Below are positions 2,733 to 30,271 of a stretch of DNA of 35,472 nucleotides, one piece after another (the first letter of the stretch is position 1; each line of letters starts with the position of its first letter). The notes below the pieces were generated by a model. It searched no databases and was not told the origin of the DNA. It saw only the letters and a program-made list of their open reading frames with translations. A program made the translations under genes and the position numbers. Source of the stretch: an uncultured Acidobacteriia bacterium. Lineage in GTDB: Bacteria; Acidobacteriota; Terriglobia; Bryobacterales; Bryobacteraceae. The stretch is taken from positions 1 to 35,472 of the forward strand of contig CAIVPR010000083.1 in NCBI GenBank assembly GCA_903907865.1, written 5' to 3'.

Positions 2733-2781
2733 CGGTTACGGCTGCCTGAAAGGCCGCCGCGGCCAATATTGGCCGCCCCAC
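2733..2781 (+). repeat. 49-bp double-hairpin repeat, copy 1
   Basis: Begins CGGTTAC and ends CCCCAC. Stem I pairs element positions 8-15 with 19-26 around a GAA loop, with one mismatch. Stem II is the perfect 18-bp palindrome GCGGCCAATATTGGCCGC at 2759-2776. The element has the same length and layout as the other five copies in the window. Confidence 0.85.
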
Positions 2782-2805
2782 GAGGAAGGCTGGCAGTTTC
2801 ATCTG

Positions 2806-2884
2806 CATTGGTGGGCCGAAGGCCCATGGGCACTCCCTCGCGGTCGCGGCTCGGCTGAATCATCATGTTCACGAACCACGACCG
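2806..2884 (+). repeat. Dispersed repeat B, copy 1
   Basis: Contains ATTGGTGGGCCGAAGGCCCAT, CACTCCCTCGCGGTCGCG and then ATGTT..AC.GA..CACGACCGC. The same order of segments occurs at 7040-7126, and a shortened form at about 7268-7314. Part of the segment is internally palindromic (GGGCCGAAGGCCC). No open frame or transposase accompanies it. Confidence 0.7.
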
Positions 2885-2921
2885 CAAGGAGTTTTGCCCA
2901 ATCGAAGGGTGACTCCAGATC

Positions 2922-3120
2922 GTGTTGGTCCGCAGTTGGATTCGGCGACCACGTGCGTCGAGAAGATTCTCGACGCGGCACGCAAGTGTGGGCGCGCCAC
3001 GAGGCTGCGAAGGCCAATAGGCACTTCGTCGAAAGCACTTTGGCTGGTGGCTGGTGGAGTGCGGTTATCGCGACCTAAAAGGTCGCGGCAGCCAAGAATG
3101 GCTGCCCTACAGAGCAGCGG
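2922..3120 (+). repeat. Duplicated block, left copy
   Basis: Starts GTGTTGGTCCGCAG and runs through ACCACGTGCGTCGAGAAGAT, GCGGCACGCA, GCGCGCCACGAGG, GGCCAATAGGCACT and a final 68-bp part (3053-3120). That last part differs at one base from 4437-4504. The right copy at 4209-4504 has the same order with about 100 extra bases in the middle. The two copies are direct repeats flanking the broken TIGR03435 gene. Confidence 0.8.
3062..3110 (+). repeat. 49-bp double-hairpin repeat, copy 2
   Basis: Starts CGGTTATCG and ends CCCTAC. Stem I is a perfect 8-bp stem, CGCGACCT with AGGTCGCG, loop AAA. Stem II is GCAGCCA with TGGCTGC, loop AGAA. It lies inside the left copy of the duplicated block. Confidence 0.85.
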
Positions 3121-3135
3121 TGCCGTAACTAAGTC

Positions 3136-3195
3136 CGCGCCTTAGGGCGCGTGCGGAGGTCGGCGACCTCCGCGCAGGCTGCCAGCCTGCCCCAC
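3136..3195. repeat. Three back-to-back perfect hairpins
   Basis: Stem A is CGCGCC/GGCGCG with a TTAG loop (3136-3151). Stem B is a 9-bp perfect stem GCGGAGGTC/GACCTCCGC with loop GGC (3153-3173). Stem C is a 7-bp stem GCAGGCT/AGCCTGC with loop GCC (3174-3190). The array ends with CCCCAC, the tail found on the 49-bp elements, so it may be a relative. It lies 32 bases beyond the stop of the TIGR03435 gene; no T-tract follows on either strand, so a classical terminator is not supported. Confidence 0.75.
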
Positions 3196-3226
3196 AACGG
3201 ATGGCTTGGCGAGCTGCGAAGATTTT

Positions 3227-4042
3227 TTAGTTTGAGATTGGGACGCGGTCGATGCGGTCTATGACGAACACGTCTACCGGCCTTTTCGTCTTCTCCAGCT
3301 TCAGGCCGAGTTGCTGATCGAGCGCTACGGACAGAATTGGAGGGGCTTGGTCTGGCGGTGGAGGTGGAGGAGGAGGCGATGCACCACCCGGTCCCCCCAA
3401 CGTACAATCCCTGCAGGCATAGACTGGCTCGTAGGTCAGGGCGAAATCGTAGGTTCCAGTGAGGCCGGTTTCGTTGTATAGGAAACGACCTTCGGGATGG
3501 CCGACCATCTCCACGAACTCATCGACGGTGCAGTTGGTGCAGGTAATTGTCCGGATGCCGGGGAGCCCCTTATCTTTGTGTGAAGGTTTGGAAGCGGCAT
3601 CCTTCGCGGCAGCCAGCCGCACGCGGCCTTTGGTAGCAACCATGACATAAGCGGGCAGGTCCTACTTCTCGCGGTGCCACGCCATGTGGAATCGTTCCGC
3701 GAGGAGATTCTGCAGCATGATACGCATCTGGTCTTTGGTTGCGCTTTGGGGAAGCGTGGCTGCAATGTCGAACATGTCGATGTTCAGCCAGTTGGGGCCG
3801 TCGATTTTTTGAGTGTCCTGGAGGTCGAAGGCGCTCTGGAGCACCATGGTCAAAGTGGCGTTGGAGAAGGTAAGGCGGGTGGGATTGTCGGTACCGGGGC
3901 CGCCGGTGGTAGCGATGTGGATCGGGCCGCCGTTGTAGGGGGCGGCGGGTTTTACGGAGGCGACCTCGAATGTCTGCGAAGACGCTGGAAGTATTAGGAA
4001 GAAGACGCTGAGCGGAACGGCTGTCTGATACCGGTGAGCCAT
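3227..4042 (-). pseudogene. TIGR03435-family secreted protein interrupted by one amber codon
   Basis: A 272-codon frame with an N-terminal signal peptide (hydrophobic VPLSVFFLILPASSQ), the family start TFEVASVKPAAP, central FHMAWHREK and the C-terminal run GLTGTYDFALTYEP...LGLKLEKTKRPVDVFVIDRIDR typical of TIGR03435, a family expanded in soil Acidobacteriota and of unknown function. An in-frame TAG at 3664-3662 (reverse strand) falls between HREK and DLPAYVMVATKG. Reading continues in the same frame on both sides and the length suits the family, so a single base change explains the break. A GGAAGG ribosome-binding site precedes the ATG. A point nonsense mutation, a sequencing error or readthrough are the options; a recent pseudogene is the simplest. 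Confidence 0.85.
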
Positions 4043-4063
4043 ATAGGAGCCTTCCGTATCAAT

Positions 4064-4081
4064 GTACCACTAAACTAGTAC
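4064..4081. promoter_or_regulatory. Inverted repeat upstream of the TIGR03435 gene, candidate operator
   Basis: GTACCA-CTAAAC-TAGTAC is an inverted repeat with one mismatched pair, centred about 30 bases upstream of the ATG at 4042. Its TACTA-type half-sites resemble BlaI/MecI-type operators. TIGR03435 genes are often found near BlaR/BlaI-like regulators, but no such gene is in this window. The regulator assignment is inference. Confidence 0.4.
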
Positions 4082-4208
4082 GCAGGTGCAAATGTTCATC
4101 CAGTGATGTACGGGAGCGTTCGAGAGATCGCCGTTTCTGACATCGAGCAGATTAGACGAGGTTCCAGTTCTTCGGCTACATCCGGTCTCCGTCGAAAGCG
4201 AATCAGGC

Positions 4209-4504
4209 GTGCTGGTCCGCAGTTTGGATTCAGCGACCACATGCGTCGAGAAGATTCTGGACGCGGCACGCAGGATTGTTCCCTATCGGGCCGGCCCGCA
4301 AGGAAGGGAATGAAAGCCCACGGGGCGTGTTTTTCGAGGGTGCGCGCGCCACGAGGCGGCCTGAGAAGGCTTTCATCCGAATTGGTGGGTCGAAGGCCAA
4401 TAGGCACTCGGTCGAAAAGGACTTCGGCTGGTGCCAGGTGGAGTGCGGTTATCGCGACCTAAAAGGTCGCGGCAGCCAAGAATGGCTGCCCCACAGAGCA
4501 GCGG
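4209..4504 (+). repeat. Duplicated block, right copy
   Basis: Matches 2922-3120 in order and mostly in sequence: GTGCTGGTCCGCAG, GCGTCGAGAAGATTCT, GCGGCACGCA, GCGCCACGAGG, GGCCAATAGGCACT and the near-identical last 68 bases (4437-4504). About 100 additional bases in the middle (from about 4276) are absent from the left copy, including a GAATTGGTGGGTCGAAGG segment of repeat B type. Confidence 0.8.
4446..4494 (+). repeat. 49-bp double-hairpin repeat, copy 3
   Basis: Identical to copy 2 (3062-3110) except for CCCCAC in place of CCCTAC at the end. It sits inside the right copy of the duplicated block. Confidence 0.85.
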
Positions 4505-4543
4505 AGCCGCAACCAAATCGGGGTGCTACCGCAACGAGCATTC

Positions 4544-4592
4544 CGGTTACGGCTGGCTGAAAGCCCGCCGCGGGCAATATTGCCCGCCCCAC
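4544..4592 (+). repeat. 49-bp double-hairpin repeat, copy 4
   Basis: Begins CGGTTACGG and ends CCCCAC. Stem I inner part is GGCT/AGCC around GAA. Stem II is the perfect palindrome GCGGGCAATATTGCCCGC at 4570-4587. Compared with copy 1, both arms of each stem have changed together. It directly abuts the truncated gene at 4594-4779. Confidence 0.85.
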
Positions 4593-4593
4593 G

Positions 4594-4779
4594 GTCGGAT
4601 TCGGTGCAGGCTAGGGTGTCGGTCAGGTTGGCCTTAGGCAGTGGTGCAGTCCAGTCGTGCCCGATGAGCGGCGCAAACGCATCCAGCTTGCCTGGGGCGG
4701 TGACGGCGGGAATCGCCGGCTTGTCTTGCGCCCACAGCGAGGCAGAAAGCAGAAGAATGCCGCACACGCGTTTGATCAT
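4594..4779 (-). pseudogene. 5' remnant of a secreted-protein gene, truncated at a repeat
   Basis: An ATG at 4779 starts a good signal peptide (MIKRVCGILLLSASLWAQ) and about 40 further ordinary residues including FAPLIGHDWTAPLP. The coding character ends near 4594, exactly where the 49-bp repeat copy 4 begins; beyond it the frame only reads repeat sequence. A region GGGGAAAAAG precedes the start. The rest of the gene is absent from the window. The family is not recognised. Truncation by repeat insertion or by recombination between repeats is inferred. Confidence 0.6.
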
Positions 4780-5000
4780 CTTTTTCCCCGTCTTCCCCGT
4801 CCCCGTCTTCCCCGGCTTTCGAGCCGCAGCGTACGCTACGGAAGCGTATCACAACGAGGGATTGCAAGGCGGACCATTCCTGCGCAAATGGATTTGGTCG
4901 CCGGGCAGTTTCCCCCGCCCGGCGGCTGGAGGGAAGCCGAAGAAGCGGCTGCGGGCGAAGCGCGAGTCCGGCGCAAGCAAGACGTTGTCCCGCGACTTTT

Positions 5001-5018
5001 TGTCAATTCTACTTGACA
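5001..5018. promoter_or_regulatory. Perfect inverted repeat TGTCAA-N6-TTGACA covering the -35 box
   Basis: TGTCAA (5001-5006) and TTGACA (5013-5018) are exact reverse complements separated by six bases. The right arm is also the consensus -35 box of the promoter for the membrane protein/XRE pair. A dimeric repressor bound here would block that promoter. The XRE protein encoded second in the operon is the obvious candidate, by inference. Confidence 0.6.
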
Positions 5019-5042
5019 CCGCCGTACCCGAACGCGTAGACT
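5013..5042 (+). promoter_or_regulatory. Sigma70-type promoter of the membrane protein/XRE operon
   Basis: TTGACA at 5013-5018, 18-base spacer, TAGACT at 5037-5042. The predicted transcript starts about 40 bases before the ATG at 5089. The -35 hexamer is perfect and forms one arm of an inverted repeat. Confidence 0.6.
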
Positions 5043-5088
5043 TTTGATGTCAGGCATACTTTACACAAGGACAACAAAGGCAGACATC

Positions 5089-5511
5089 ATGAATCAAGCA
5101 AAACCGCCGGCGAATGGGTACCAGTCGCGGACGCGGAGGAACGTTGTGCGGCTCTTCTACTGGAACGGCGCGTGGGGCGTGGCCACGGCCCTGATGGCCC
5201 TCGGGCCGAAAATCATTTGGAACAAGGCCCCGGTGTTGACACTGCTGGCGGTGGGGCTGAACGTCGCGTTGGGCGTCGGCATGATCGTGGCCAACAAAAC
5301 CTACCTGGCGGAACTGGATGAACTCCAACGGAAAGTCCAACTAAACGCCATGGGAATCACGTTGGGGGTCGGGCTGATCGCCAGCGGACCGCTTTCCGTG
5401 ATGGACTCGAACCACTTGATCCCGTTCCATGCGGACATCGCAAACCTGCTGATTCTCATGAGCCTGACGTTTGTGGCGTGCAACCTGTACGGAATGTGGC
5501 GCTACCGATGA
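5089..5511 (+). CDS. Small four-helix membrane protein
   Basis: 140 residues from the ATG at 5089, which has an AAAGG-like ribosome-binding site and lies downstream of a clear promoter; earlier start codons fall at the predicted transcription start. Four hydrophobic segments can be seen: around WGVATALMALGP, VLTLLAVGLNVALGVGMIV, GITLGVGLIASGP and LLILMSLTFVACNLYGMW, with a charged loop TYLAELDELQRKVQ between the second and third. The stop overlaps the start of the XRE regulator gene by four bases (ATGA). Small membrane proteins paired with a short XRE regulator are common in bacteria, but the function is unknown. No enzyme motif is visible. Confidence 0.75.
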   Translation: MNQAKPPANGYQSRTRRNVVRLFYWNGAWGVATALMALGPKIIWNKAPVLTLLAVGLNVALGVGMIVANKTYLAELDELQRKVQLNAMGITLGVGLIASGPLSVMDSNHLIPFHADIANLLILMSLTFVACNLYGMWRYR

Positions 5512-5714
5512 AGAACCGGCTGAAGGTTCTTCGAGCCGAGCGCGACTGGACGCAGGCCCGGCTGGCCGACGCCCTTGATGTGTCGAGGCAGACCATCAAC
5601 GCCATCGAGACGGGCAAGTTCGATCCGAGCCTGCCTCTAGCCTTCCGGGCCGCCCGGCTCTTCGGGCTGCGAATCGAAGAGATTTTTCACGACCCTGGGT
5701 TGGAGGATGCTTAG
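5508..5714 (+). CDS. Short XRE-family helix-turn-helix regulator
   Basis: 68 residues that are almost entirely an HTH_3 domain: LKVLRAERDWTQARLADAL, then the recognition-helix region VSRQTINAIETGKFDPSL, then LAFRAARLFGLRIEEIF. This is the compact type of transcriptional regulator that often controls its own two-gene operon. It starts at an ATG inside the stop region of the membrane protein gene (ATGA overlap), so the two are translationally coupled. A plausible target is the inverted repeat at 5001-5018. The gene's last codons form the first unit of a 16-bp tandem repeat. Confidence 0.85.
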   Translation: MKNRLKVLRAERDWTQARLADALDVSRQTINAIETGKFDPSLPLAFRAARLFGLRIEEIFHDPGLEDA

Positions 5715-5788
5715 GTTGGAAGAGGCTTAGGTTGGAAGAAGCCCAGGTTGGAAGAGGCCCAGGTTGGACCACGCCGGGTTGAACCAAG
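5693..5788. repeat. 16-bp tandem repeat, six units
   Basis: Units of 16 bases with consensus GCCCAGGTTGGAAGAG. Copies at 5693, 5709, 5725, 5741 and 5757 are followed by a diverged one at 5773. The first unit lies within the end of the XRE gene and the second contains its TAG stop. The array fills the gap to the convergent YeeE-type gene. Confidence 0.85.
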
Positions 5789-5828
5789 TACGGAGTGGTC
5801 TTGCGACCGGGATGCCGCGCGTTCGCAA

Positions 5829-6308
5829 TCAATGCGGGAGTCGGGGGCGAAGGAAGCCGTAGAGCCAAGTACCGGCGAGAGCGCTGACAATGGCGACGAG
5901 CATCACGGGAACGCCATTGCCTACCAGTGCGAACAGCGGCCCGGGACAAGCTCCCGTGAGTGCCCAGCCCAGGCCGAAGATGGTGCCGCCCGCCGCGTAG
6001 CGGATGCCCCGCCCCAGGGTCTTGGGCGGGATCGTGATCGGCTCGCCGGAAATGGTCTTCACTCCAAGCTTCCTGATGAGCGCGAGTGAACCGGCGGCAA
6101 CCACGATGGCCGAGACGATGATCTCATACATGCGGGGAGATTGGAAGCGGAACATCTCCTGGATGCGGAACCAGGAGAGCACCTCGGACTGGGTCAAGGT
6201 AATTCCAAACAGGACACCGAGAACAAGATACGCCGGCCAAGCGAGGTGGTCGGCCAGACTGCGCTGTGGACGGGCAGCGTTCCCGCGTATGGTTGGCGCC
6301 GTGCTCAT
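5829..6308 (-). CDS. YeeE/YedE-family sulfur transport protein, second half-protein
   Basis: 159-residue integral membrane protein, starting at the ATG at 6308 that overlaps the stop of the upstream partner (ATGA). Hydrophobic segments include AYLVLGVLFGITLTQ, YEIIVSAIVVAAGSLAL, GTIFGLGWALTGACPGPL and VPVMLVAIVSALAGTWLYG. The GxGWALTGACPGP motif with its conserved Cys is characteristic of YeeE/YedE (PF04143), channels for thiosulfate or related reduced sulfur species. In many bacteria the family is split into two adjacent half-size genes, as here. The substrate is not shown by the sequence. It converges on the XRE gene. Confidence 0.85.
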   Translation of the reverse strand: MSTAPTIRGNAARPQRSLADHLAWPAYLVLGVLFGITLTQSEVLSWFRIQEMFRFQSPRMYEIIVSAIVVAAGSLALIRKLGVKTISGEPITIPPKTLGRGIRYAAGGTIFGLGWALTGACPGPLFALVGNGVPVMLVAIVSALAGTWLYGFLRPRLPH

Positions 6309-6862
6309 AAGATCAACGGAAGCACGAAATAGGTGGCGATCAAGCCGCCGGCGAAGAAGCCGACCACGGCAATCAACGAAGGTAACTGGAGATCCGCAAG
6401 TCCTGCGATGGCGTGTCCGGAAGTACAGCCCCCGGCATATGCAGTGCCGAAGCCGACGAGAAAACCGCCCACAACGACCGAGACAAAGCCTTTGAGCGTA
6501 AGCAACGCCGACCACGTGAACACCTCTCTCGGAGCGAGTCCAGTGAAGTCGTGAATGCCCAGACTGGCCAAGGCGAGTCGGGTGGGTTCGGAAATCTGGA
6601 TGTCGTGGGAGCCTCCGAAATGCGAGGCGAGGAAGCCGCCCAGCGCGATACCAGCGACGAAGAGAAGGTTCCAGAGGCCGGTTCCCTTCCAATCGTAGCG
6701 GAGGTATTCGATGCGGGTCGGCAGGAGGGCGGAGCACAGGTGCCGCAAGTTGCTGGAAACACCAAAAAGCCGATTGCCGATGATCAAAAGCGCGGGAACG
6801 AACAGTCCGATTGCCGGACCGGCTACGTACCACGGCCAAGGGGTGGAAGCCAAGGCGACCAT
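6305..6862 (-). CDS. YeeE/YedE-family sulfur transport protein, first half-protein
   Basis: 185-residue membrane protein. The ATG at 6862 is chosen because GGGAGG stands at a good distance upstream; the reading frame extends further but without a binding site. The family motif YAGGCTSGHAIAGLADL lies in the C-terminal half, with hydrophobic helices around WYVAGPAIGLFVPALLII, LLFVAGIALGGFL, VVVGGFLVGFGTAY and LIAVVGFFAGGLIATYFVLPL. The conserved Cys in GGCTSGH is thought to pass the sulfur substrate in this family. It forms a two-gene operon with the downstream half-protein (4-bp overlap). A -10-like TATAAA stands about 35 bases upstream (6893-6898, reverse strand). Confidence 0.88.
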   Translation of the reverse strand: MVALASTPWPWYVAGPAIGLFVPALLIIGNRLFGVSSNLRHLCSALLPTRIEYLRYDWKGTGLWNLLFVAGIALGGFLASHFGGSHDIQISEPTRLALASLGIHDFTGLAPREVFTWSALLTLKGFVSVVVGGFLVGFGTAYAGGCTSGHAIAGLADLQLPSLIAVVGFFAGGLIATYFVLPLIL

Positions 6863-7039
6863 CGTTTTACTGCCTCCCAAGAAAAGGTTTAGTTTATAAC
6901 GGGGTGTGCGCCAAGACCAGATGCTGGCGGACGAGGGACGGGAACCGGCACGAAATGGGCGCACGGTTCGACTTCTCGATGAACCACGAGGAGGTCCGGG
7001 TTCTCGCGGGACATTTTCGCCGGAGTGCGGCGTGAGGTG

Positions 7040-7126
7040 CTGCCGGATTGGTGGGTCGAAGTCCCATCGACACTCCCTTGCGGTCGCGGCTCGGAAAAAT
7101 CAGGATGTTACCGAGGCACGACCGCC
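7040..7126 (+). repeat. Dispersed repeat B, copy 2
   Basis: GATTGGTGGGTCGAAGTCCC, CACTCCCTTGCGGTCGCGGC and GATGTTACCGAGGCACGACC in the same order as 2806-2884. The last 22 bases recur exactly at 7292-7313. Confidence 0.7.
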
Positions 7127-7190
7127 TGTTGAAAGTTAACGCTTCGGACCGCCGGGGTGCCGGTTGTAAGATCACCCGGCCCCGGCAGTC

Positions 7191-7239
7191 CGGTTATGCC
7201 AGGCTGAAAGCCTGGCGCAGCCAAGAATGGCTGCCCTAC
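7191..7239 (+). repeat. 49-bp double-hairpin repeat, copy 5
   Basis: Begins CGGTTATG and ends CCCTAC. Stem I is a perfect 8-bp stem GCCAGGCT/AGCCTGGC with a GAA loop. Stem II is GCAGCCA/TGGCTGC with loop AGAA. Confidence 0.85.
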
Positions 7240-7367
7240 ACACGCGTCGCGGTCGCCTTTCAGCCGGATTGGCGGGTCGAAGTCCCATCGATGTTACCGA
7301 GGCACGACCGCAGAGTGAAAACGCGGGATGACTCGCACAAACACTCCCTCGTGGCGGAGCGTTGCCT

Positions 7368-10148
7368 TCACGACAAGAACTGGTCGGGCCTGCGCAGCCA
7401 TTCCGTCGCCTGGGCGGCGTCGCCGGGGTGCGCGATCGCGTAACCCTGCAGCAGGTCGATGCGTTCGTTGCGGAACATTCCCCTCATCTCGCGAGTTTCG
7501 ACTTTGGTCACTGTTAGTTGCGCCCTGAAGACCTGCGCGATACTCTGCACCACGTTGAAGAGCGCATTGAAATTCTGTCGGCTGCTTTTGTCTTCGAGTA
7601 GCTTCGCTTCCAGCTTGATCCCCCGGAATGGAAGTTGGGTCAAGTGGCCGAGAGCGACGAAACCCTGCCCGAAGTTATCGAGATTCGCGCCCACGCCGGC
7701 TTCACGGAGCCTGCGGAGTTTGCGGATCGCATGTCCCACGTCGCGGACAAGAGCCTCTTCCTTGATGTCCAGTCGAAGCCATTGCCAGCCTGTTGCGTAG
7801 CGGGTGCCCAGTTGCTCAATTTGACCCAGCAGATCCTGGGTTGCAAACTCGCACACTCCCACATTCATCGAGACGGGCACCATGGACAAGCCCTCTTTCA
7901 ACCACTGCTGGTACTGCCGGAAAACCGCGTCCATGACCCATTCCCCAACCGCCGGACCGAGCCGCCTTTGTTCCACCAGAGGCATGATTTCCGCCGCCGT
8001 CCGATCTGCGCCCCCAGGTTGGGGCCAGCGCAGGAAAGCTTCAATGCCGCGCAATTCCCCGCTTCGCACATCCACGATGGGCTGGTAGTGGAGTCTGAAC
8101 TCGTCGTCCCGCAGGGCCGCCGCCAGGAGTTCCCCATCCGTGCCGCGCGACCCGGTCGGGCGCATCGCGGGGTTGTAAAGGGAAAACGCGTTCTTGCCCG
8201 CCCGTTTCACCTGGTAAAGCGCGAGATCCGCGTACTCCACCAACTCGCCTTCCTCTACCGTATCCGAAGGGTAGATGGCCACCCCGACGCTGGCTCCGAT
8301 TTCGACCGTGTTTCCGCCAATCCGGTAGGGTCGGGAGACCGACTCGACAATCTTCTCGGCGACTGAAGACACGCTGGCCGGGTCCTGCAACCCCGGCAGC
8401 AGAATGGCGAATTCGTCTCCTCCGAAACGGGCCGCGGTATCGCCCACTCCGATTGTGCTGGTCAAGCGTTTCGCAACCTCAATCAGCACTTGGTCCCCGG
8501 CGGCGTGGCCGAGGGTGTCGTTGACCTGTTTGAATCGATCCAGGTCGATGAGGCAGACGGCGAAGGCATTGTTCCTGATCGTCGAATTCCGGACTTCTTC
8601 GCGCAAACGCCTCTCGAACATGAGCCTGTTGGCGAGGCCGGTAAGCGCATCGTGAAGGGCGACGTGTTCCAGCCGGGCGGTGGTGAGAAGCACCTGCAGG
8701 TCACCATGCATCTTTTCGGCGAACTCAATTTCGCTGTCGGTCCACTTCTCCGAAGTGTTTCTCACCCGTTCGGACCAGACGGCGAACGAATTGCGCGGGG
8801 TCAGCGGGGACGGCTTGCTTTTCGGACTGTCGTCGCCGGCGTCCGGCTTTCCGGCCCAGTTCACGGTCTCAATGACTTCGGGACGCACCACGGCAATGAA
8901 ATCCGCGCTACTGAGGGGGATGAAAAGCACGCCGCTGGCGTTGGCCGACAGCGCCCGATACCGTTGAAGCGCTTCGGGCAGCGAATCATAATAGCTGACG
9001 CCTTCACGCGGAAACCGATCGATGAAATCCCGCAGCGGTATGAGCGAACTCTTATCCGGAACCAGGCCGGCGAAGAAATCCTTCCCTTCGAAACGCAGCC
9101 ATGCACCCCCTGCGCCGAACATCTCGCGGATCATTCCCAAATTCTGCGAGAGCGCGAGCTTCGGTTCATCCCCGGCTCCGGATATTGCCCCTTGCAGTCG
9201 TGATAGTTGCTGGCGCATGCCCGACTGCACGCGCTGTTCCGACAGCGCCTGTAAGTTAGTCAGGTGCAGCGACACCAGGCGCGCCATTTCTTCAAACGCC
9301 AACCGGTCTTCGATCGGCAATTCCTTTGGTGCCAAGTGATGGCATGCGATTAGTCCCCAGAGTTTCCCCGCCACCACGATTGAGAGTGTCAGAGTTGCCT
9401 GAACGCCCATGTTCCTGAGGTACTGAAGGTGAACTGGATGGGCGGAGCGAAGGGCCGAGTAAGTAAGGTCGAGCGGCGGTGCGTCGTCGCTCCATTTGAC
9501 AATCGGGGAGGTGGCTGTGTCCACGTCCACTATGCTGCGCTGCCAATTGACAGTGAACAACCGCCTCGCATTGGGCGGGATATCCGATGCGGGAAACCGG
9601 ATACCGAGGTATCCTGCGACTCCCGGACGGCATCGCTCGGCGGCCACTTGGCCATCCCAGCTGGGCAGGAAGCGATACGTCATGACGCGGTCGTAGCCGG
9701 AGCGGTCATAGACCCAGTCGACGAGAAGCTCGTGGCATTGTTCCGTTGCATTTACGGACGTGAGTTGTTCGACGAAACGGGTTCGCGCCGAATGGTTCCA
9801 CCAACGGGTGGGTGAAGCAACCGCCCGTTCAAATTCGAAGATACGGTGCGCGCCTTGACGGTGTCCAAGTACGATCAACGGCTCGACGCCGGCAAAATCG
9901 CGCCATTCCGGTTTGCCCTCCTGGTCGGCGAGGGAGCGGAGGCGAGGCCATGATTTCGATAGCCACTCGGCACCGGTTCGGCCCAGCAAGCCCTCGGGTT
10001 CGATCCCAAGCAAAACGGCGGAATTTGCCGAGCAGTACTCGATGACATTGCTGTCCGATTGAACGGCGACGAGCACTCCATTCCCCTGGACGCTGCCGAG
10101 GTACTGAAGGACCGCATTCTTACAGTCTCCGAACGGGCCGTCAGCCAT
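7368..10148 (-). CDS. bphP: Bacteriophytochrome with GGDEF and degenerate EAL domains
   Basis: 926 residues in the order PAS (about 10-110), GAF (about 125-300), PHY (about 310-490), GGDEF (about 495-660), EAL (about 670-920). Chromophore features are present: Cys9 near the N-terminus in the biliverdin-attachment position, PASDIP at 186-191, HLQYLRNMG from His240, CHH at 269-271 and the PHY tongue PRNSF at 451-455. GGDEF at 576-580 is intact, but the RxxD inhibitory site upstream is GxxD, so product inhibition is unlikely. The EAL domain keeps Glu703, Asn762, Lys845 and Gln901, but has Asp794 for the first Glu of ExxE, Asn825 for the second Asp of DDFG and Thr881 for the Glu of AEGVE, so phosphodiesterase activity is doubtful. 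It is likely a red/far-red-controlled c-di-GMP synthase. It overlaps the heme oxygenase gene by eight bases. Confidence 0.92.
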   Translation of the reverse strand: MADGPFGDCKNAVLQYLGSVQGNGVLVAVQSDSNVIEYCSANSAVLLGIEPEGLLGRTGAEWLSKSWPRLRSLADQEGKPEWRDFAGVEPLIVLGHRQGAHRIFEFERAVASPTRWWNHSARTRFVEQLTSVNATEQCHELLVDWVYDRSGYDRVMTYRFLPSWDGQVAAERCRPGVAGYLGIRFPASDIPPNARRLFTVNWQRSIVDVDTATSPIVKWSDDAPPLDLTYSALRSAHPVHLQYLRNMGVQATLTLSIVVAGKLWGLIACHHLAPKELPIEDRLAFEEMARLVSLHLTNLQALSEQRVQSGMRQQLSRLQGAISGAGDEPKLALSQNLGMIREMFGAGGAWLRFEGKDFFAGLVPDKSSLIPLRDFIDRFPREGVSYYDSLPEALQRYRALSANASGVLFIPLSSADFIAVVRPEVIETVNWAGKPDAGDDSPKSKPSPLTPRNSFAVWSERVRNTSEKWTDSEIEFAEKMHGDLQVLLTTARLEHVALHDALTGLANRLMFERRLREEVRNSTIRNNAFAVCLIDLDRFKQVNDTLGHAAGDQVLIEVAKRLTSTIGVGDTAARFGGDEFAILLPGLQDPASVSSVAEKIVESVSRPYRIGGNTVEIGASVGVAIYPSDTVEEGELVEYADLALYQVKRAGKNAFSLYNPAMRPTGSRGTDGELLAAALRDDEFRLHYQPIVDVRSGELRGIEAFLRWPQPGGADRTAAEIMPLVEQRRLGPAVGEWVMDAVFRQYQQWLKEGLSMVPVSMNVGVCEFATQDLLGQIEQLGTRYATGWQWLRLDIKEEALVRDVGHAIRKLRRLREAGVGANLDNFGQGFVALGHLTQLPFRGIKLEAKLLEDKSSRQNFNALFNVVQSIAQVFRAQLTVTKVETREMRGMFRNERIDLLQGYAIAHPGDAAQATEWLRRPDQFLS

Positions 10149-21382: not shown

Positions 21383-21395
21383 CAGCACTATCGTA

Positions 21396-22085: not shown

Positions 22086-22106
22086 CAACCCTTATAGGGA
22101 TGCCGC

Positions 22107-22607: not shown

Positions 22608-22647
22608 CTTTGTCTATGTTAGCGAACGTGGTCTTGCGGCGCGGGAA

Positions 22648-22675: not shown

Positions 22676-22696
22676 CAATCGGGAGATGAAGCCCCT

Positions 22697-23440
22697 TTGA
22701 TCAGCCCCGCCCAAGCATCAGCGGACCAACGTCAAGACGTGATCGCGACCGGCCTGTTCCTGGCCAAGTTCGACAAGGCAGGATTGACTCGACTGGGGTT
22801 TAAGAGCTTCACCGAGGCGTTCAACGTCTTCGGGTCCGCCTTGGGAGTACCGCCCGCATCGATCAAGAACTACCGCGACGAATTCGATCCATTCTTCCCG
22901 AACCCGCGACGAGGCTGGCACAAGCGCGAGCTCCGGCACCACTGCAAGGACGTTCTGGATCTCTACCGCCACGCCGATTTGGCTGCCTTCTCGATCCGGG
23001 TCCAGTCGTTCTTCGACCATGAATCCGACACCGAGCGCGCAGATGAAGAGGACTCGCAGTTCGCAAAGAGGCTCGAAACAGGGCTCGCTGCGGAACGCTA
23101 CTTTGTGACCAAGCAACCGACACTGCCGGAGTTCCACGGATGGACGCCGGAGAACACAACTCAGCTGGGCTGCGGCTACGACTTCCGGCTCCACCGGAAC
23201 TCACATGACTTTCTTGCGGTCGAGGTCAAAGGCCTAAGGGAGCCACATGGGTCCGTGGCCATGACCGCCAAGGAGTACCACACGGCCCGACGGCTGGCGA
23301 ACCGCTATTTCCTGTTCGTGGTTAAGGATTTTCGCGGAACGCCGAACCACGAAATCTTCCAAGACCCCGCTTCCGGCAGACCAGCCTTCCGGCGGACGGA
23401 AAGGATGGTCGCGGAAGTAACCTGGAATACCACGGTTTGA
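22697..23440 (+). CDS. DUF3883 (NO VEIN C-terminal-like) restriction-type nuclease candidate
   Basis: About 247 residues from a TTG at 22697; the start is chosen from the promoter at 22648-22675 and the GGGAGA binding site. The N-terminal half (FLAKFDKAGLTRLGFKS, LGVPPASIKNYRDEFDPFF, GWHKRELRHHCKDVLDLY) is helical. The C-terminal half has the DUF3883 pattern GYDFRLHRNSHDFLAVEVKGL, TAKEYHTARRLANRYFLFVVKDF, with the E-x-K of PD-(D/E)xK-type nucleases in VEVKG. Related domains appear in restriction and defence proteins. No methyltransferase or helicase partner is adjacent, so it may act alone or be an orphan. It diverges from nuoI. Confidence 0.75.
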   Translation: MISPAQASADQRQDVIATGLFLAKFDKAGLTRLGFKSFTEAFNVFGSALGVPPASIKNYRDEFDPFFPNPRRGWHKRELRHHCKDVLDLYRHADLAAFSIRVQSFFDHESDTERADEEDSQFAKRLETGLAAERYFVTKQPTLPEFHGWTPENTTQLGCGYDFRLHRNSHDFLAVEVKGLREPHGSVAMTAKEYHTARRLANRYFLFVVKDFRGTPNHEIFQDPASGRPAFRRTERMVAEVTWNTTV

Positions 23441-23555
23441 GCGGACCTGTCTGGCTGCTGAGCGCCCGCGCATGCTACGCTCGCCATTTCAGATTCGTAT
23501 TCGAAATGTTTCCGAAGTTGCCCTCATTTGCAGAACTCATGCTATTTTCTAAGGA

Positions 23556-24228
23556 ATGCGCCGCAGTCTTGTTGCCGAAGCCGGCCCTTCCCCGCTAATG
23601 CACGGAGCGGCAATCTTCCTCTTGGTTATTGCCACTTGGCTGGGATCGGGAACCCAGTCCGCCGCTTCCCGCTTGGGCTGCAGCGAGTCCAGATCGCGGC
23701 TAGTACTACTCTCTCGGACCGCATTTCCCTTTTCGATCCGCCACGATCAGTCCACCTCCAACACCACCGCCAGCTCCCACGCCTGTCAAGTCATGGTCAA
23801 CCTACGTCGAGCCACGATTCGGGTGGTCAGTCCAGTATCCTGCGACTTGGACAATCCACAACAGTTGTCCTGCTCGGTGCGCCGCACCCGGGAGCGCAGT
23901 GAGCTTCTTCAACCCGGACACAGGAACCTCGATAATCGTGTCCAGCCTCACCGACGCACTCAGGGGAAGAAGCATCAATGATCGCCTCGCCTACCTGAAA
24001 CAAACCAACCTCAATCCGCAAACACGTGAAACACCAATCCGGCTGGGAAACTCCATGGCGCTCACCGTTCGGAACGAACAACCAGATTTGCAGATGGAAG
24101 CAACATACGTCGTAACGGAGTCGGCTCATTTTCAGATCGGCGTTAGTTCATTCCACTGGACTATTGAGCAGTTGACGGACTACCCGGCTTATCGGCACCT
24201 TCTGGAAAGCTTCACAGTTTCGAAGTAG
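23556..24228 (+). pseudogene. Secreted protein gene with a single frameshift
   Basis: The start frame (ATG 23556) gives a signal-peptide-like segment GAAIFLLVIATWLGSGTQSAA. The next frame is open only from 23704, after a TAG at 23701-23703, and reads a Pro-rich linker (ISPPPTPPPAPTPVKSW), then YVEPRFGWSVQYPATW, AVSFFNPDTGTSIIVSSLTD and a natural ending YRHLLESFTVSK. That second frame lacks any ATG, GTG or TTG before 23899, in the middle of the fold, so it needs the upstream signal peptide. A one-base insertion (or two-base loss) between about 23660 and 23703 would join them. The protein resembles small exported lipoprotein-like domains with an FxxxYPxxW pattern; the family is not named with confidence. 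Confidence 0.65.
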
Positions 24229-24306
24229 AGCCCCGGTCTCGGCGACGGCATAAACTCCAACTCGCGACTTTCCACCCCTTTCCGTGTTCGTGAGATCATC
24301 ATCGTT

Positions 24307-25629
24307 ATGACCGCGCCCCACATCGCGACCCGCCGGGCCCTCCACCGCCGCCATTTCCTCCGCGGAGCCGGAGTCGCCCTAGCCCTCCCCTACCTCGATT
24401 CCATGGCTCCCGCCTTCGCGCAGGCCCAGAAACCCTCCTCCCCCCTCGCCCCCGGTGCCACCCCGCGGCGCATGATCGGCATCTGCAACAACCTCGGCCT
24501 CCTCGCCGACCAGTTCTTCCCCACGGGCTCCGGCCGCGACTACACCCCCTCCCCCTACCTCCAGCACCTCCAGGAGCACCGCAACGACTTCACCGTCTTC
24601 ACGGGCGTCTCCCACCCCAACGTCGATGGCGGCCACCCCGCCGACGTCTGCTTCCTCACCGCCGCCCCCCACCCCGGCAGCGGCTCCTTCCGCAACACCA
24701 TCTCCCTCGACCAGTACATCGCCGAGCAGATCGGGATCCTGACGCGCTTCCCTTCCCTCACCCTTGCCGTCAACACCCGCTCCCGCAGCCTCTCGTGGAC
24801 CGGCACCGGCGTCGCCATCCCGCCCGAGGACAAGGCCGCCTCAGTCTTCAAGGAGATGTTCCTCCAAGGCAGCGCCGCCCAGATAGACGCCCAGATTCGA
24901 AAACTCGACACCGGCAAGAGCATCCTCGACGCCGTCTCGACCCAAGCCAAGTCCCTCCAATCCAACGTCGGCACCCGCGACCGCGACCGCCTCGACCAGT
25001 ACTTCACCAGCGTCCGCGACCTCGAACACCGCCTCCAAGCCTCCAAAGGCTGGGAGCGCAAGCCCAAACCCGTGGTCAGCGCCCCCGTTCCCGTCGACCC
25101 CGCAGACCCAGCCCTCTACATGGCCAAGGTCAAGGTTATGTACGACCTCGCCCGCCTCGCCATCGAGACCGATTCCACCCGCTCCGTCACCCTCATGTTG
25201 GAAGGCGTCAGCGCGCCGGTCCTCGACATCCCCAACGCCACCCTGACCGACAGCTACCACAACCTCTCCCACCACGGAAAGTCGGAAAACAAGCGCGGGC
25301 AGCTCAAGGTGATCGACGAGTGGCACATGAAGCTCCTCGCCGGCCTGATCGCCAACCTGAAGTCCGTCCACGAGGGCGAGGAAACCTTGCTTGACCGCAC
25401 CATGGTCCTCTATGGCTCGAACTTCGGCGACGCCAACGCGCACACCTGCTTCGACATGCCGGTGGTCCTCGCGGGCGGCGGCTTCCGCCACGGCCAGAAC
25501 CTCTCCTTCGACCGCAACACCAACTACCCGCTACCCAACCTGTTCGTCAGTATGCTGCAGCGCATGGGGATCGAAACCGACCGCTTCGCCTCGTCCACCG
25601 GCACCATGCGGGGGTTGGAACTCGCGTAA
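24307..25629 (+). CDS. DUF1552 secreted protein
   Basis: 440 residues. The N-terminus has [20 protein letters not shown], a Tat-type signal that is typical for DUF1552. Family landmarks include [46 protein letters not shown] and [21 protein letters not shown]1552 proteins are almost always encoded beside a DUF1592/1588/1587/1585 protein, as here: the stop overlaps the next start by one base (TAATG). The pair is thought to be the counterpart of DUF1501/PSD1 and to act in the periplasm; its reaction is unknown. The gene is strongly C-ending in codon use. Confidence 0.92.
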
Positions 25630-28151
25630 TGCGCCGGCTCGCCTTCGCACTACTCGTCGCGGCGTCCCTGCATGCCGCCGATACCGACGCCGCCTTCACA
25701 GCCAAATACTGCGTCGCCTGCCACAACGGCACCGCGAAATCCGGCGGCCTCGACCTGACCGCCCTCGCCTTCGACCCCGCCACCCCAACCAACTTCGCCC
25801 AGTGGGTCAAAGTCCACGACCGCGTCAAGTCCGGTGAAATGCCGCCCAAGGCCATCCGCCAACGCCCCGACCCCGCAGCTCAACAAACCTTCCTCGCATC
25901 CCTCTCCGCGCGCCTCAGCGCCTTCGAAAAGAAGACCACCCTCGCCGAGGGCCGAGCCACCGAGCGCCGCCTCAACGCCTACGAGTACGAGAACTCCCTC
26001 CGCGACCTCCTCCACGCCCCTTGGCTCCAGATCAAGGGCCAGTTCCCCGAAGACGGCGAAGCGTTCCGCTTTAACAAAGTCTCGAACGCCCTGGACGTCT
26101 CCCACGTCCACGTCTCCCGCTATATGGGAGCCGCCGACTACGCCATCCGCGAAATCCTCTCCGTCCAGAAGACCCAGCCCACCACCGCCACCACCCGCTA
26201 CTACGCCCGCGAACAGCGCGACCTCATCAGCAAAATCAACAACAAGCAGCAGGTCGGCGACCGTTCCACCTACCCCATCCTCGGCCTTGAGCCCCAGCGC
26301 GAAGTCTACGACAAGACCGCCCCCATGACCGTTGGGCCCGCCGACCCCGCCACCCGCGAAAGAGAAGCCGTCGCTTGGGTCGCCAGCAACTATGTCACCG
26401 GTTTCCGCTACTCCTGGGACCGCTTCAAGGCCCCCGTCGCTGGCCGTTACCGCATCCGGTTCAGCGGCTACACCCTCTGGGTCGCGCCCCAACAAGCCAA
26501 GAAATACCTGCCGGACTTCGAACACGTCTCCCGCGGCCGCCGCGACGAGTCCATCAACGTCTATACCCGCAACGGCGTCCTCAACCGCCACGTCGGCAGC
26601 TTCGACATCACCCCCGACCCGGCGCCCCACGACGTCGGCGAAGTCTGGCTCCTCGCAGGCGAAACCCTAGTCCCCGATGCCAGCCGCCTCTACCGCTCCC
26701 GCCCCAACAACTTCCGCAACCCCCTCATGACGCCCGACGGCGCGCCCGGCGTCGCATTCCAATGGATGGAGGTCGAAGGCCCGCTCTACGACGCCTCCAC
26801 CACCGCCGGCTACAAACTCCTCTTCGGCGACCTGCCGCTCCAAGGCAACGAAGTCGTGTCCACAGCACCCGAGAAGGACGCCGACCGTCTCATGCGCGCC
26901 TTCCTCCGCCAAGCCTACCGCCAGCCCAAGGTCGACGAATCCGATGTCCGCCTCTTCCTCTCCGTCGTCGACGACCGCCGCAAGGCAGGACTTTCCTTCA
27001 CCGAGGCCATGATCGCCGGATACACCGCCGCCCTGGCCTCCCCCAAGTACTTATACCTGAACGAAAAACCGGGCCGCCTCGACGACTACGCGCTGGCGAC
27101 CCGCCTCGCGCTCTTTCTGACAAACTCGACGCCCGACGAGATTCTCCTCGCCCGCGCCGCCAAGGGTGAACTCGCCCGTCCCGCCGTACTCCGCGCCGAA
27201 ACCGAGCGCATCCTCGACAGCCCCCAGGCCCGCCGCTTCCGCGAGGCATTCCTCGACTACTGGGTCGACCTCCGCAAGATCGAAGACTCGACCCCCTCGG
27301 CCTCCCTCTACAACGACTACTACCTCGACGACGCCCTCACCGAGGCCGCCGTGGCCGAAACGCGCCTCTTCTTCGACGACATGCTGCGCCGCAACCTGCC
27401 CGTCCGCAATGTGGTCGATTCCCGCTTCACGTACCTGAACGAGCGCCTCGCCGTCCACTACGGGATTCCAGGCGTGCAAGGCGTGGCTATGCGCCGCGTC
27501 GACATCCCGCCCGACAGTCCGCGCGGCGGCTTCATGACCCAGGCCAGCGTCCTCAAGGTGACGGCCAACGGCACCACAACATCGCCCGTTCTGCGCGGCA
27601 AGTGGATCATGGAGCGCATCCTGGGTCTGGAAATTTCGCCCCCGCCATCGGTGCCCGCCGTGGAGCCGGACATCCGGGGAGCGGTCACGATCCGCCAGCA
27701 GTTGGAAAAGCACCGCTCGGACCCCACCTGCAACTCCTGCCACAGCCGCATCGACCCCGCAGGCTTCGCGCTGGAGAGCTTTGACGTGATGGGCGGCTGG
27801 CGCGACCGTTACCGCGGCGTGGACGAGGAGAAGAAGCCCGTCCCCGGTTACGGCAAGAACGGCCAGCCGTTTGCGTACCACTACGCGCTGCCTGTGGACC
27901 CGTCCGGTGTGCTGCCGGACGGTCGGGCGTTCTCCGGGATTCGGGAACTGAAGCAGCTACTCCTCAGCGACGAGCGACTGCTGGCGATTAACTTGGCGCG
28001 TCAACTCACGGTCTACGCGACAGGTGCCCCGGTCCGATTCAGCGACCGGGGGCAGATCGATAAGATTGTGGATGCGACGAAGCCTGGCGGGTATGGTCTG
28101 CGGGACTTGGTGCACGGGGTGGTGCAGAGCGATTTGTTCCGGAGCAAATAA
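25629..28151 (+). CDS. DUF1587/DUF1595/DUF1592/DUF1588/DUF1585 cytochrome-like secreted protein
   Basis: 840 residues with a signal peptide ([18 protein letters not shown]). An N-terminal cytochrome-type motif KYCVACHNG (about residue 28) is followed by DUF1587 (ERRLNAYEYENSLRDLL), DUF1595, DUF1592 (LATRLALFLTNSTPDEILL), DUF1588 with CNSCHSRIDPAGFALESFD and a C-terminal DUF1585 (RLLAINLARQLTVYATG). The two CxxCH motifs suggest heme attachment. Together with the DUF1552 protein, with which it is translationally coupled, it makes one of the two parallel secreted systems in this window. The substrate is not known. Confidence 0.92.
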   Translation: MRRLAFALLVAASLHAADTDAAFTAKYCVACHNGTAKSGGLDLTALAFDPATPTNFAQWVKVHDRVKSGEMPPKAIRQRPDPAAQQTFLASLSARLSAFEKKTTLAEGRATERRLNAYEYENSLRDLLHAPWLQIKGQFPEDGEAFRFNKVSNALDVSHVHVSRYMGAADYAIREILSVQKTQPTTATTRYYAREQRDLISKINNKQQVGDRSTYPILGLEPQREVYDKTAPMTVGPADPATREREAVAWVASNYVTGFRYSWDRFKAPVAGRYRIRFSGYTLWVAPQQAKKYLPDFEHVSRGRRDESINVYTRNGVLNRHVGSFDITPDPAPHDVGEVWLLAGETLVPDASRLYRSRPNNFRNPLMTPDGAPGVAFQWMEVEGPLYDASTTAGYKLLFGDLPLQGNEVVSTAPEKDADRLMRAFLRQAYRQPKVDESDVRLFLSVVDDRRKAGLSFTEAMIAGYTAALASPKYLYLNEKPGRLDDYALATRLALFLTNSTPDEILLARAAKGELARPAVLRAETERILDSPQARRFREAFLDYWVDLRKIEDSTPSASLYNDYYLDDALTEAAVAETRLFFDDMLRRNLPVRNVVDSRFTYLNERLAVHYGIPGVQGVAMRRVDIPPDSPRGGFMTQASVLKVTANGTTTSPVLRGKWIMERILGLEISPPPSVPAVEPDIRGAVTIRQQLEKHRSDPTCNSCHSRIDPAGFALESFDVMGGWRDRYRGVDEEKKPVPGYGKNGQPFAYHYALPVDPSGVLPDGRAFSGIRELKQLLLSDERLLAINLARQLTVYATGAPVRFSDRGQIDKIVDATKPGGYGLRDLVHGVVQSDLFRSK

Positions 28152-28236
28152 GGCTAGCCGTGTCGCACGTTCCGACGGAATCCCCCAAAGTCAGGACGTT
28201 CCCGAAATCGAAAGCAAGCTAAGTTGTTGAAAAGAT

Positions 28237-28313
28237 TGGTGGGCGGTCAGGGACTCGAACCCCGGACCCCCTGCTTGTAAGGCAGGTGCTCTAACCGGCT
28301 GAGCTAACCGCCC
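28237..28313 (-). tRNA. tRNA-Val (anticodon TAC), CCA encoded
   Basis: Reverse-strand cloverleaf: acceptor GGGCGGT with ACCGCCC, D arm GCTC/GAGC, anticodon stem CCTGC/GCAGG with loop CTTACAA (anticodon TAC), variable GGGTC, T arm CGGGG-TTCGAGT-CCCTG. The discriminator A is followed by an encoded CCA. The 5' end lies only seven bases after the stop codon of the GNAT gene on the same strand, so it may be cotranscribed with the glt operon. Confidence 0.95.
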
Positions 28314-28320
28314 GGTATTC

Positions 28321-28773
28321 CTATAGAATAGCAAGCTCGAAGCAGAGGGCGTCCCTCGGGTTGTTGCCGTACGGCGGGATCTCGTGGAAGCCCAGGTTTC
28401 GATACAACGTTATGGCGGATTGCATGGCCGGGAGGGTGTCGAGGCGAAGGAATTGATAACCTTCGCTGCGGGCCTCCTGGATGGCTTGTTCCACCAGTTG
28501 ACGTCCGATACCGGAGCCGCGCGCTTCGGGTCGGACGTAGAGTCGCTTCAGTTCGGCGATGCCTGCATCCAGAGGGCGGAGGGCGGTGCAAGCCTGCAAA
28601 CGGTCGGATTCGACCGCAACTAGGATCACTGTGTAGGGGCCGGGCAGGCCTTCGGTTTCGCGGAGGAAACCGGCGAGGCAGAGGTCGCCTCCGATTGAGT
28701 GGACCCAAATGCCGTATTCGACGAAGATCTCTCGGAGGGCCGGGAGATCTTCAGAAGTGGCGCGGCGGATCAT
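28321..28773 (-). CDS. GNAT-family N-acetyltransferase
   Basis: 150 residues with the GNAT fold: N-terminal [16 protein letters not shown], the acetyl-CoA-binding motif [26 protein letters not shown] (R-x-x-G-x-G type, as ARGSGIG), and motif B with [12 protein letters not shown]. It transfers an acetyl group to an amine; the substrate is unknown. It starts three bases past the gltD stop and precedes tRNA-Val by seven bases, so it is the third protein gene of the glt operon. Small GNAT genes next to glt are not a known fixed partnership, so the link may be only transcriptional. Confidence 0.88.
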
Positions 28774-28776
28774 GGC

Positions 28777-30198
28777 CTACGCGGGCAGGTTTGAGCTGCC
28801 CATCAAGTATTCGTCGATGCCCTTTGCGGCTTTGCGGCCTTCGGCAATAGCCCAGACGACCAGAGACTGGCCGCGACGGGCGTCGCCGGAAGCGAAAACT
28901 CCGGGAACCGAGGACATGTAGGAGTTCGGGTCGGCCACCACGTTGCCGCGGTTGTCGAGGGCGACTCCCAGTTCTTCCAGCAGTCCGTTCTTTACGGGGC
29001 CGAGGAAGCCCATCGCGAGGAAGACGAGGTCGACATCCAGCTCGAATTCGGTGCCCGGCTGGACCTCAAACTTCGGCGGCGAACCCACACGTATGCCGTG
29101 CAGTTTCTTGACGTTGCCGTTCTCATCGCCACTGAAACGAACCGTGTTGATGGACCAGTCGCGGATACCGCCCTCTTCGTGGGCGCTCTCTGTGCGCAAC
29201 TGGAGCGGCCAAAGGGGCCAAGGCGTGCTGGGCGAACGCTCGCCGGGCGGCTTCGGCATCAGTTCGAACTGCATGACGCTGGCGGCTCGCTGGCGGTGGG
29301 AGGTACCAAGGCAGTCGGCACCGGTATCGCCGCCGCCGATGATGACGACGCGCTTGCCGGTGGCGAGGATCTGGTCGGGCACGGTGTCTCCCTCGCAGAC
29401 CTTGTTGGCCTGGGGCAGGAACTCCATGGCAAAGTGGATGCCTTTGAGGTCGCGGCCTTCCACATTGAGATTGCGGGGGGCTTCGGCTCCGGTGGCGATC
29501 AGGATGGCGTCGAAATCGCGCTGGAGGTCGGAGGTGTGGACATTGCCACCGACGTGGGCGTTGACGATGAATTCGACACCCTCGGCGCGCATCTGTTCCA
29601 GACGGCGGTCGATGGTGTGCTTCTCCATCTTGAAGTTGGGGATGCCGTAGCGGAGGAGGCCGCCGATGCGGTCGGACTTCTCGAAGACGGTCACGGAGTG
29701 GCCGACGCGGGCGAGCTGCTGGGCGGCGGCGAGTCCGGCGGGACCGGAACCGACGACGGCGATGCGCTTGCCAGTGCGGACCGGGGCGACTTCCGGGGTG
29801 ATCCAGCCTTCTTCCCAAGCACGGTCGACGACGGTCTTCTCAATGTTCTTGATGGTGACGGCGGGGTCCGTGATGCCGAGGACGCAGGCGGCCTCGCACG
29901 GCGCGGGGCAGATGCGGCCGGTGAATTCCGGGAAGTTGTTGGTGGAATGGAGGACGCGGATGGCCTCGCGCCAACGGCCGCGGAAGACGAGGTCGTTCCA
30001 GTCGGGGATGATGTTGGAGACCGGGCAACCGGTATGGCAGAAAGGCACGCCGCAGTCCATGCAGCGGGCACCTTGCTCGCGGATGTTGGCCTCGGGATAG
30101 GGCTGGTAGATCTCGAACCAGTCGTTGATGCGTTCCGCGGCAGGGCGACGGGTGGGGAGATCGCGGCGGAATTCGAGGAAGCCTGTTGGTTTGCCCAT
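28777..30198 (-). CDS. gltD: Glutamate synthase (NADPH) small subunit
   Basis: 473 residues from the ATG at 30198. The N-terminal adrenodoxin-like region carries Cys46, 49, 54, 58 ([14 protein letters not shown]) and Cys97, 101, 105 (CPAPCEAAC), ligands of its 4Fe-4S clusters. The FAD-binding motif [12 protein letters not shown] is at 148-159 and the NADPH-binding [11 protein letters not shown] lies near 290. It supplies electrons from NADPH to the large subunit for the conversion of 2-oxoglutarate and glutamine to two glutamates. The ORF begins a few codons upstream, but [10 protein letters not shown] is the family start. A 49-bp repeat separates it from gltB. Confidence 0.96.
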
Positions 30199-30222
30199 GA
30201 TTAGTTGCACCCCCGGGAGGCA

Positions 30223-30271
30223 CGGTTACGGCTGCCTGAAAGGCTGCCGCAGCCAAGGGTGGCTGCCCCAC
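30223..30271 (+). repeat. 49-bp double-hairpin repeat, copy 6, inside the gltB-gltD operon
   Basis: Begins CGGTTACGG and ends CCCCAC. Stem I has GCCT/AGGC around GAA plus the outer GGC/GCC. Stem II is GCAGCCA/TGGCTGC with loop AGGG. It occupies half of the 117 bases between the gltB stop (30316) and the gltD start (30198), on the strand opposite to the genes. Confidence 0.85.

Follow-up and report, generated by a model that had tools for sequence, protein, structure and literature searches.

Several systems described in the accessible text of earlier reports resemble the one studied here. Repetitive extragenic palindromic (REP) elements and REPtrons are known, and their pairing is kept by complementary mutations (PMC2817692). 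For group 3 REP-associated tyrosine transposases (RAYTs), certain loop bases are essential in two systems, and the tetranucleotide GTAG guides the cut (PMC8266576). Double-foot REPs of the TnpAREP subclass 2.4 terminate in C[TC]AC, which is the foot in reverse complement, and are therefore inverted (PMC6006769). TIRtrons are composed of a tyrosine transposase gene (TIRYT) and the terminal inverted repeats (TIRs) around it, some of them double palindromic and some repeated, with representatives in Acidobacteria; TIRs were described as unrelated to GTAG REPs (PMC3733652), and most TIRYTs were later put in subclass 2.1, with C-terminal helix-turn-helix (HTH) domains (PMC6006769). REPs in close groups are referred to as BIMEs and REPINs, the latter being inverted pairs (PMC3116915, PMC6006769). 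At the ends of IS200/IS605 insertion sequences, finally, a Y1 transposase recognizes hairpins on one strand, guided by a tetranucleotide at their foot, and IS200 enzymes are dimeric (PMC6006769, PMC8266576). Here, we study a stretch of 35,472 nucleotides from an uncultured Acidobacteriia bacterium (contig CAIVPR010000083.1; in the following, the window), which harbors six copies of a 49-bp sequence with two adjoining hairpins. These sequences are very probably two-hairpin REP elements, i.e., gene-less mobile elements of single-stranded DNA, whose most likely cognate enzyme is a RAYT of 184 amino acids encoded in the same genome.

All six copies lie on the minus strand of the window, at 2733-2781 (copy 1), 3062-3110 (copy 2), 4446-4494 (copy 3), 4544-4592 (copy 4), 7191-7239 (copy 5), and 30223-30271 (copy 6). 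Their positions, their length of 49 bp and their plus-strand form CGGTTA...CCYAC are exactly as given by the first-pass annotation of this DNA, and a scan of both strands revealed no seventh copy of this form and length in the window. Read on the minus strand, each copy is composed of GT[A/G]GG, hairpin I (positions 6-11/18-23), hairpin II (24-30/36-42), and TAACCG; in copy 1, the foot is found at 2781 and the tail ends at 2733. The foot reads GTAG in copies 2 and 5 and GTGG in the other four. Copies 3 and 4 are co-oriented and 49 bp apart, while copy 6 occupies the gap between a gltB-like and a gltD-like gene. A covariance model was built from these six copies, which consequently match it by construction (76.4, 75.3, 76, 74, 75.2, and 73.8 bits for copies 1 to 6, respectively).

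The family extends far beyond the window, as the first-pass annotation had anticipated. At least 151 matches to the model were found in the 7.5-Mb genome, with a best E-value of 2.4e-16; this is a lower bound, as the best 150 of 4600 first-look candidates were scored. The following statistics cover the 150 listed copies, all of which were read. The fixed length of 49 bp, true of the window, does not hold genome-wide: 93 of the 150 copies have this length, 35 comprise 50 bp, six 48 bp, four 51 bp, and 12 deviate otherwise. The foot is GTGG in 97 copies, GTAG in 42 and different in 11, such that GT[A/G]G directly precedes the hairpin in 139. The last six bases are TAACCG in 100 copies, TGACCG in 14, CAACCG in five, and others in 31. 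Whereas the foot marks a sharp 5' boundary, save for a preceding T in 116/150, a weak consensus continues for about 20 nucleotides past the tail. According to our own home-made gene calls, 35 of the 150 copies are located inside predicted genes, compared to 79% of positions drawn at random from the same stretches. Among the 85 intergenic copies with both neighbors known, 46 lie between co-oriented, 26 between convergent, and 13 between divergent genes. Neighboring copies at most 400 bp apart share their orientation in 26 of 29 pairs and are inverted in three (binomial p = 1.5e-5); thus, the arrays are head to tail, unlike REPINs. The 49-bp copies constitute a large dispersed family and not a chance similarity.

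A search of the genome for Y1_Tnp domains gave four matches, which represent three genes. Two of them are of the IS200 type, an intact gene for 147 amino acids (locus L009) and a broken one that lacks part of its core (1447-1875 of locus L010). The third (1420-1974 of locus L011) encodes the RAYT-like protein of 184 amino acids and is the sole RAYT-like gene found in this genome, confirming that a REP-associated tyrosine transposase, which the first-pass annotation had suggested looking for, is present. It is framed by two inverted copies of the element, one on the plus strand (1388-1436, 69.1 bits), which overlaps the 3' end of the gene, and one on the minus strand (2019-2067, 74.6 bits). This is the layout of a REPtron, and the family is therefore best read as REPs served by this RAYT. 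The protein passes the Pfam cut-off for Y1_Tnp, and a profile constructed from 28 of its relatives retrieves E. coli TnpAREP (4er8) at an E-value of 1.2e-9, followed by IS200-type transposases. The motifs NHVH, WQ, and YIELNP in its sequence agree with subclass 2.1 or, less closely, with subclass 2.4 of PMC6006769. All five RAYTs scanned hit Y1_Tnp, and none revealed an HTH domain at E-values up to 0.1. Subclass 2.4 would be favored by the length of the protein and by the fact that no C-terminal domain was detected.

The following mechanism would account for such a family. The working strand would be the minus strand of the window, with its GT[A/G]G foot, two adjoining hairpins and TAACCG tail. 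Whenever this strand turns single, in the course of replication or transcription, both hairpins would form; the RAYT would bind a hairpin tip together with the foot, and its tyrosine would cut beside the foot. By joining the element to another single strand, the enzyme would cause copies to spread, mostly to intergenic sites and in head-to-tail arrays. As the arms need only pair, they could drift with compensating changes.

Folding as DNA yields hairpins I and II for either strand of every window copy. In copies 1, 4, and 6, for which alternative hairpins had been pointed out, these turned out to be minor by folding: With DNA energies, mean pair probabilities in the two main hairpins remain at 0.76-0.90 on either strand. 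The paired changes noted at plus-strand positions 12/22, 13/21, 29/42, and 31/40 are present and correspond to the minus-strand pairs 28/38, 29/37, 8/21, and 10/19, respectively. Covariation was assessed against a null in which substitutions are reshuffled along the tree, in two versions. For the 72 distinct 49-mers of the window's genome and 1000 replicates, pair 10/19 passes (E-values 0.003 and 0.001 under the two nulls), pair 29/37 is borderline (0.075 and 0.049), which makes one passing pair under one null and two under the other, and none of the 1163 non-structural column pairs passes; two pairs had passed in an earlier run with 60 null replicates. Adding copies from relatives gave 95 distinct 49-mers, 91 of which were used after four too distant ones had been dropped. 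With this set, pairs 10/19 and 29/37 both reach an E-value of 0.0017, the resolution limit, while the next-best pair 27/39 (0.075) and the other structural pairs fail, 11 of 13 in all, as do all 1163 non-structural pairs. Parsimony on the tree of the 72 sequences from the window's genome counts 13 double paired changes, four of them at 10/19 and four at 29/37. The claim of covariation beyond the null was thus right in kind; since 11 of 13 pairs fail, much of the visible covariation reflects subfamily inheritance. Covariation is real but modest.

The site of copy 6 was compared with that of other members of the genus. Over 1.4 kb at gltB-gltD, genome G018 is 87% identical to the window's genome (G000) and carries an orthologous element at the same place and in the same sense. 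The two differ at eight of 49 positions, including a change from C-G to G-C at 10/19 and from an A.A mismatch to C-G at 27/39; these differences may also stem from overwriting by another copy. In 15 of the 16 other genus members in which the gap is readable, the detector found no GTRG two-hairpin element there, while that of G005 (L263) holds one of a different family; the contig of G015 stops short of the gap. At this one site, the element is present in some species and absent from others. In the stretch 1-7900 of the window, matches to G015 and G018 are chiefly confined to repeats and the first 140 bases, and hence copies 1-5 could not be dated. A second orthologous array (contig C98 of G000, C402 of G018) aligns well in its first two elements. 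Its third element (L034 at G000:C98:149695, L293 in G018) keeps hairpin I, while hairpin II and the tail differ and are those of another family, an exchange that hints at modular recombination.

On a broader scale, window-type elements were found in 13 of 61 genomes, with the highest numbers in G015 (at least 74), G013 (at least 51), and G018 (at least 49), where the best 99 candidates per genome were scored. Of 101 genomes searched for RAYT homologues, 59 contain them, and the nearest RAYT relatives in named genomes belong mainly to Bryobacterales and other Acidobacteriota. We examined 110 RAYT loci, 30 from relatives and the window's own genome and 80 from a wider homologue search, with a few contigs contained in both sets. 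In 12 of the former 30, the covariance model from the window has matches on opposite strands to the left and right of the RAYT gene (E-values up to 1), and the flanks in other lineages contain elements that are built alike but differ in their arms. Inverted repeats exceed those of shuffled sequences at 84 of 108 loci with enough flank. A strict detector, which asks for GTRG followed by two near-perfect hairpins and misses some elements visible by eye, reports at least one flank with such an element in 38 of 110 loci, compared to 1/1085 for shuffled flanks. Two sufficiently long flanks are available at 107 loci, of which 19 carry the element in both and another 19 in one; detectors with other rules for stem overlap gave both flanks in 16/108 and 13/107, the version reported being 19/107. 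Split into both, one, and no flanks, the counts are 10, 7, and 11 for relatives and the own genome (n = 28), 5, 5, and 8 for named-genome loci at about 50% identity or more (n = 18), 3, 0, and 15 for the next identity group (n = 18), and 1, 7, and 35 for the lowest (n = 43). The two-hairpin build belongs mainly to the near RAYT clade. In three further RAYT lineages, the flanking elements recur at least 15, 19, and 42 times per genome, flanking copies included. One RAYT gene (1501-2064 of locus L065) has an insertion of 15 residues and contains a weak element match at 1566-1625 (18.5 bits), resembling the in-gene REPs reported for subclass 2.4.

The fold and its paired changes might also be explained by a structured RNA element, a regulator or processing site, that is kept by selection on the RNA. 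Both hairpins are stable, two pairs covary beyond the tree-based null, and copy 6 sits between two genes of one operon. Yet no Rfam family matches the copies (the only match in the window is a tRNA at 28240-28313), their gene context is mixed, the gltB-gltD copy is missing from 15 of the 16 other readable genus members, and a transposase gene is framed by inverted copies, all of which renders this explanation highly improbable. The first-pass annotation had suggested selection on a folded RNA or cruciform as opposed to the simple decay of a mobile copy. A folded family with paired changes is indeed what we find, whereas the opposition is a false choice, because it is in folded, single-stranded form that REPs are read by their transposase; some copies may later serve as RNA. 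That the repeats spread as intrinsic transcription terminators, to which GC-rich hairpins located between genes would be suited, is extremely improbable: TTTT follows the hairpins within about 15 nucleotides in none of 150 copies on the element strand and in two of 150 on the other, and none of the six terminator-like sites at 2600-7400 of the window coincides with a copy. An integron attC site was provisionally set aside as an alternative.

As for the enzyme, the genome's intact IS200-type gene might move the family, leaving the RAYT as a bystander. The best model match at this locus scores 15.9 bits, compared to the 69.1 and 74.6 bits of the inverted copies around the RAYT gene, and two-hairpin flanks recur at the RAYTs of relatives; we regard this possibility as very improbable. 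A different question is whether the paired changes arise by mutation, with template switching that rewrites one arm from the other (quasi-palindrome correction). Such an origin would rival selection on pairing and leave the identity as REPs untouched. G-T intermediates are scarce, and arms frequently differ in their entirety, in line with arm copying; mismatches nevertheless persist, 27/39 being unpaired in 28 and 24/42 in 26 of 91 distinct copies. We consider arm copying somewhat unlikely, though it deserves serious attention.

Several points weigh against the reading of the family as REPs served by the RAYT. Binding, cutting, and movement by this protein, as well as the reading of both hairpins by the same kind of protein, are what we infer for the system. 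The protein scores 72.5 bits in the NCBIfam model REP_Tyr_transpos, below the curated cut-off of 80. Near the RAYT gene of G013 (L046), three model matches all lie on one strand, and 69 of the 107 loci, many of them more distant, have no two-hairpin flank. No RAYT match was found in G018 despite its at least 49 elements, which in an assembly of 980 contigs means loss or a gap. A base-exact insertion junction at gltB-gltD could not be placed, as the DNA of the 16 genus members is too diverged. Furthermore, a guide rule modeled on PMC8266576, by which a GTAG foot cuts at CT and a GTGG foot at CC, is unsupported after correction: The best of 98 flank tests was CC at position -2 (0/40 GTAG versus 15/80 GTGG copies, uncorrected p = 0.0023), and it is confounded with subfamily.

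Given two-hairpin REPs and their RAYTs, the hairpin tips may indicate what the protein reads. We compared tips at the 36 loci that remained once near-duplicates had been removed. Within an element, the two hairpin loops have a mean likeness of 0.67 compared to 0.33 when permuted (0/20000 permutations as high), while the arms reach 0.43 compared to 0.40 (1092/20000 as high). With one locus per tip class (21 classes), loops pass (median p = 0.0005) and arms fail (0.10). Loops are identical at ten of the 36 loci, and the match is same-sense at 33, tied at one, and reverse at two (L211 and L231), whose elements are of the inverted sort and resemble double-foot REPs. Without the window's clade, loops score 0.73 versus 0.34 and arms 0.43 versus 0.43. 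Within the window's clade (six loci), loop likeness amounts to 0.37, compared to 0.28-0.32 with other clades; tip matching is weakest exactly in the clade where the elements were first found.

Tip types also cluster on the RAYT tree, in which 13 of 26 inner branches are weak. For 29 RAYTs and five tip classes, the tree needs five changes (the minimum is four), compared to a mean of 17.8 for shuffled labels, none of 200 shuffles being as low; the classes were assigned by eye, which makes the comparison of loops within and between them partly circular. The clearest misfit, L212, is known from one flank only. Such clustering would also arise from linked inheritance alone. Without constraint, an unpaired tip would be expected to drift no more slowly than the arms, yet tips are the part common to both hairpins. 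This pattern fits a tip that is read by a protein and written twice per element, with two protein copies perhaps docking on one element. Tentatively, and well aware that it may prove wrong, we propose that the REP of this RAYT clade is a two-site docking element, in which two hairpins of the same sense and tip behind one GT[A/G]G foot would be gripped by two RAYTs or by a dimer, as in IS200 transposition. The tip would be a lineage-specific address that changes with the protein, and the arms would be free to drift provided that pairing is kept. Such an element would amount to an IS200-like transposon cut down to the minimum, lacking genes and having its left and right hairpins joined, and its tips would be diverging in the window's lineage.

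The genes of the window encode PSCyt, DUF1501, and DUF1552 domains, which together with the nearest RAYT relatives make Bryobacterales the most probable affiliation of the genome. The window holds further repeats. Dispersed direct repeats of 30-80 bp lie between the copies at 2803-2885, 2936-2984, 4224-4272, 4377-4409, 7043-7125, and 7264-7296, a repeat-rich stretch without synteny in G015 or G018, and a 16-bp tandem repeat at 5698-5777 comprises four copies in register. A second repeat family with three hairpins in a row is represented at 3136-3201 on the minus strand (GTGGGGCAGG...); 17 of the 45 listed genome matches to 3000-3200 begin at query base 126 or later. In G015, a member of this second family adjoins a second RAYT gene (L316). 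Since one RAYT only was found in the window's genome, the second family may have lost its enzyme there.

REPs are common repeats of bacteria, yet how a RAYT recognizes its own REP family has been worked out for few systems only. A clade in which the seemingly recognized part is written twice and its type changes with the transposase offers natural matched pairs for reading this code, may reveal how an insertion sequence with two ends gave rise to an element without genes, and lends itself to telling selection on pairing apart from mutational arm copying. Double palindromic TIRs (PMC3733652) and double-foot REPs (PMC6006769) are already in print. Text searches, with figures, supplements, and most subscription papers outside their reach, found no publication on hairpins that match at their tips in the same sense and follow a single foot. 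The two-hairpin design and its matching tips in related bacteria look like a recognition code that is apparently undescribed.

Compared to REPs and REPtrons as described in the text of PMC2817692, PMC8266576, and PMC6006769, our elements share the GT[A/G]G foot with a hairpin immediately after it, the many extragenic copies, the Y1 transposase gene between inverted copies, and the complementary mutations. A single palindrome per element is the described form of REPs rather than a strict criterion; unlike these single hairpins with or without a bulge, the six copies and the family model have two adjoining hairpins behind one foot, followed by a conserved tail. With the double-foot REPs of subclass 2.4 they have in common two palindromic parts per element, a similar protein length, and the lack of a detected extra C-terminal domain. 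They differ in the tail TAACCG, in having no C[TC]AC form among their 14 most frequent six-base ends, and in the second tip, which mostly repeats the first in the same sense. The type found in G005, GGGGTCAG, fits the TIR motif GGGGWSAS (PMC3733652), while the RAYTs scanned here, unlike the subclass 2.1 TIRYTs, show no C-terminal HTH domain; as this comparison follows the text description, an overlap with some of those elements is possible. Close grouping is shared with REPINs and BIMEs, whereas inverted pairs, the mark of REPINs, account for few of our close pairs. Unlike the ends of IS200/IS605, finally, both hairpins adjoin each other in one 49-bp element, with no gene between them.

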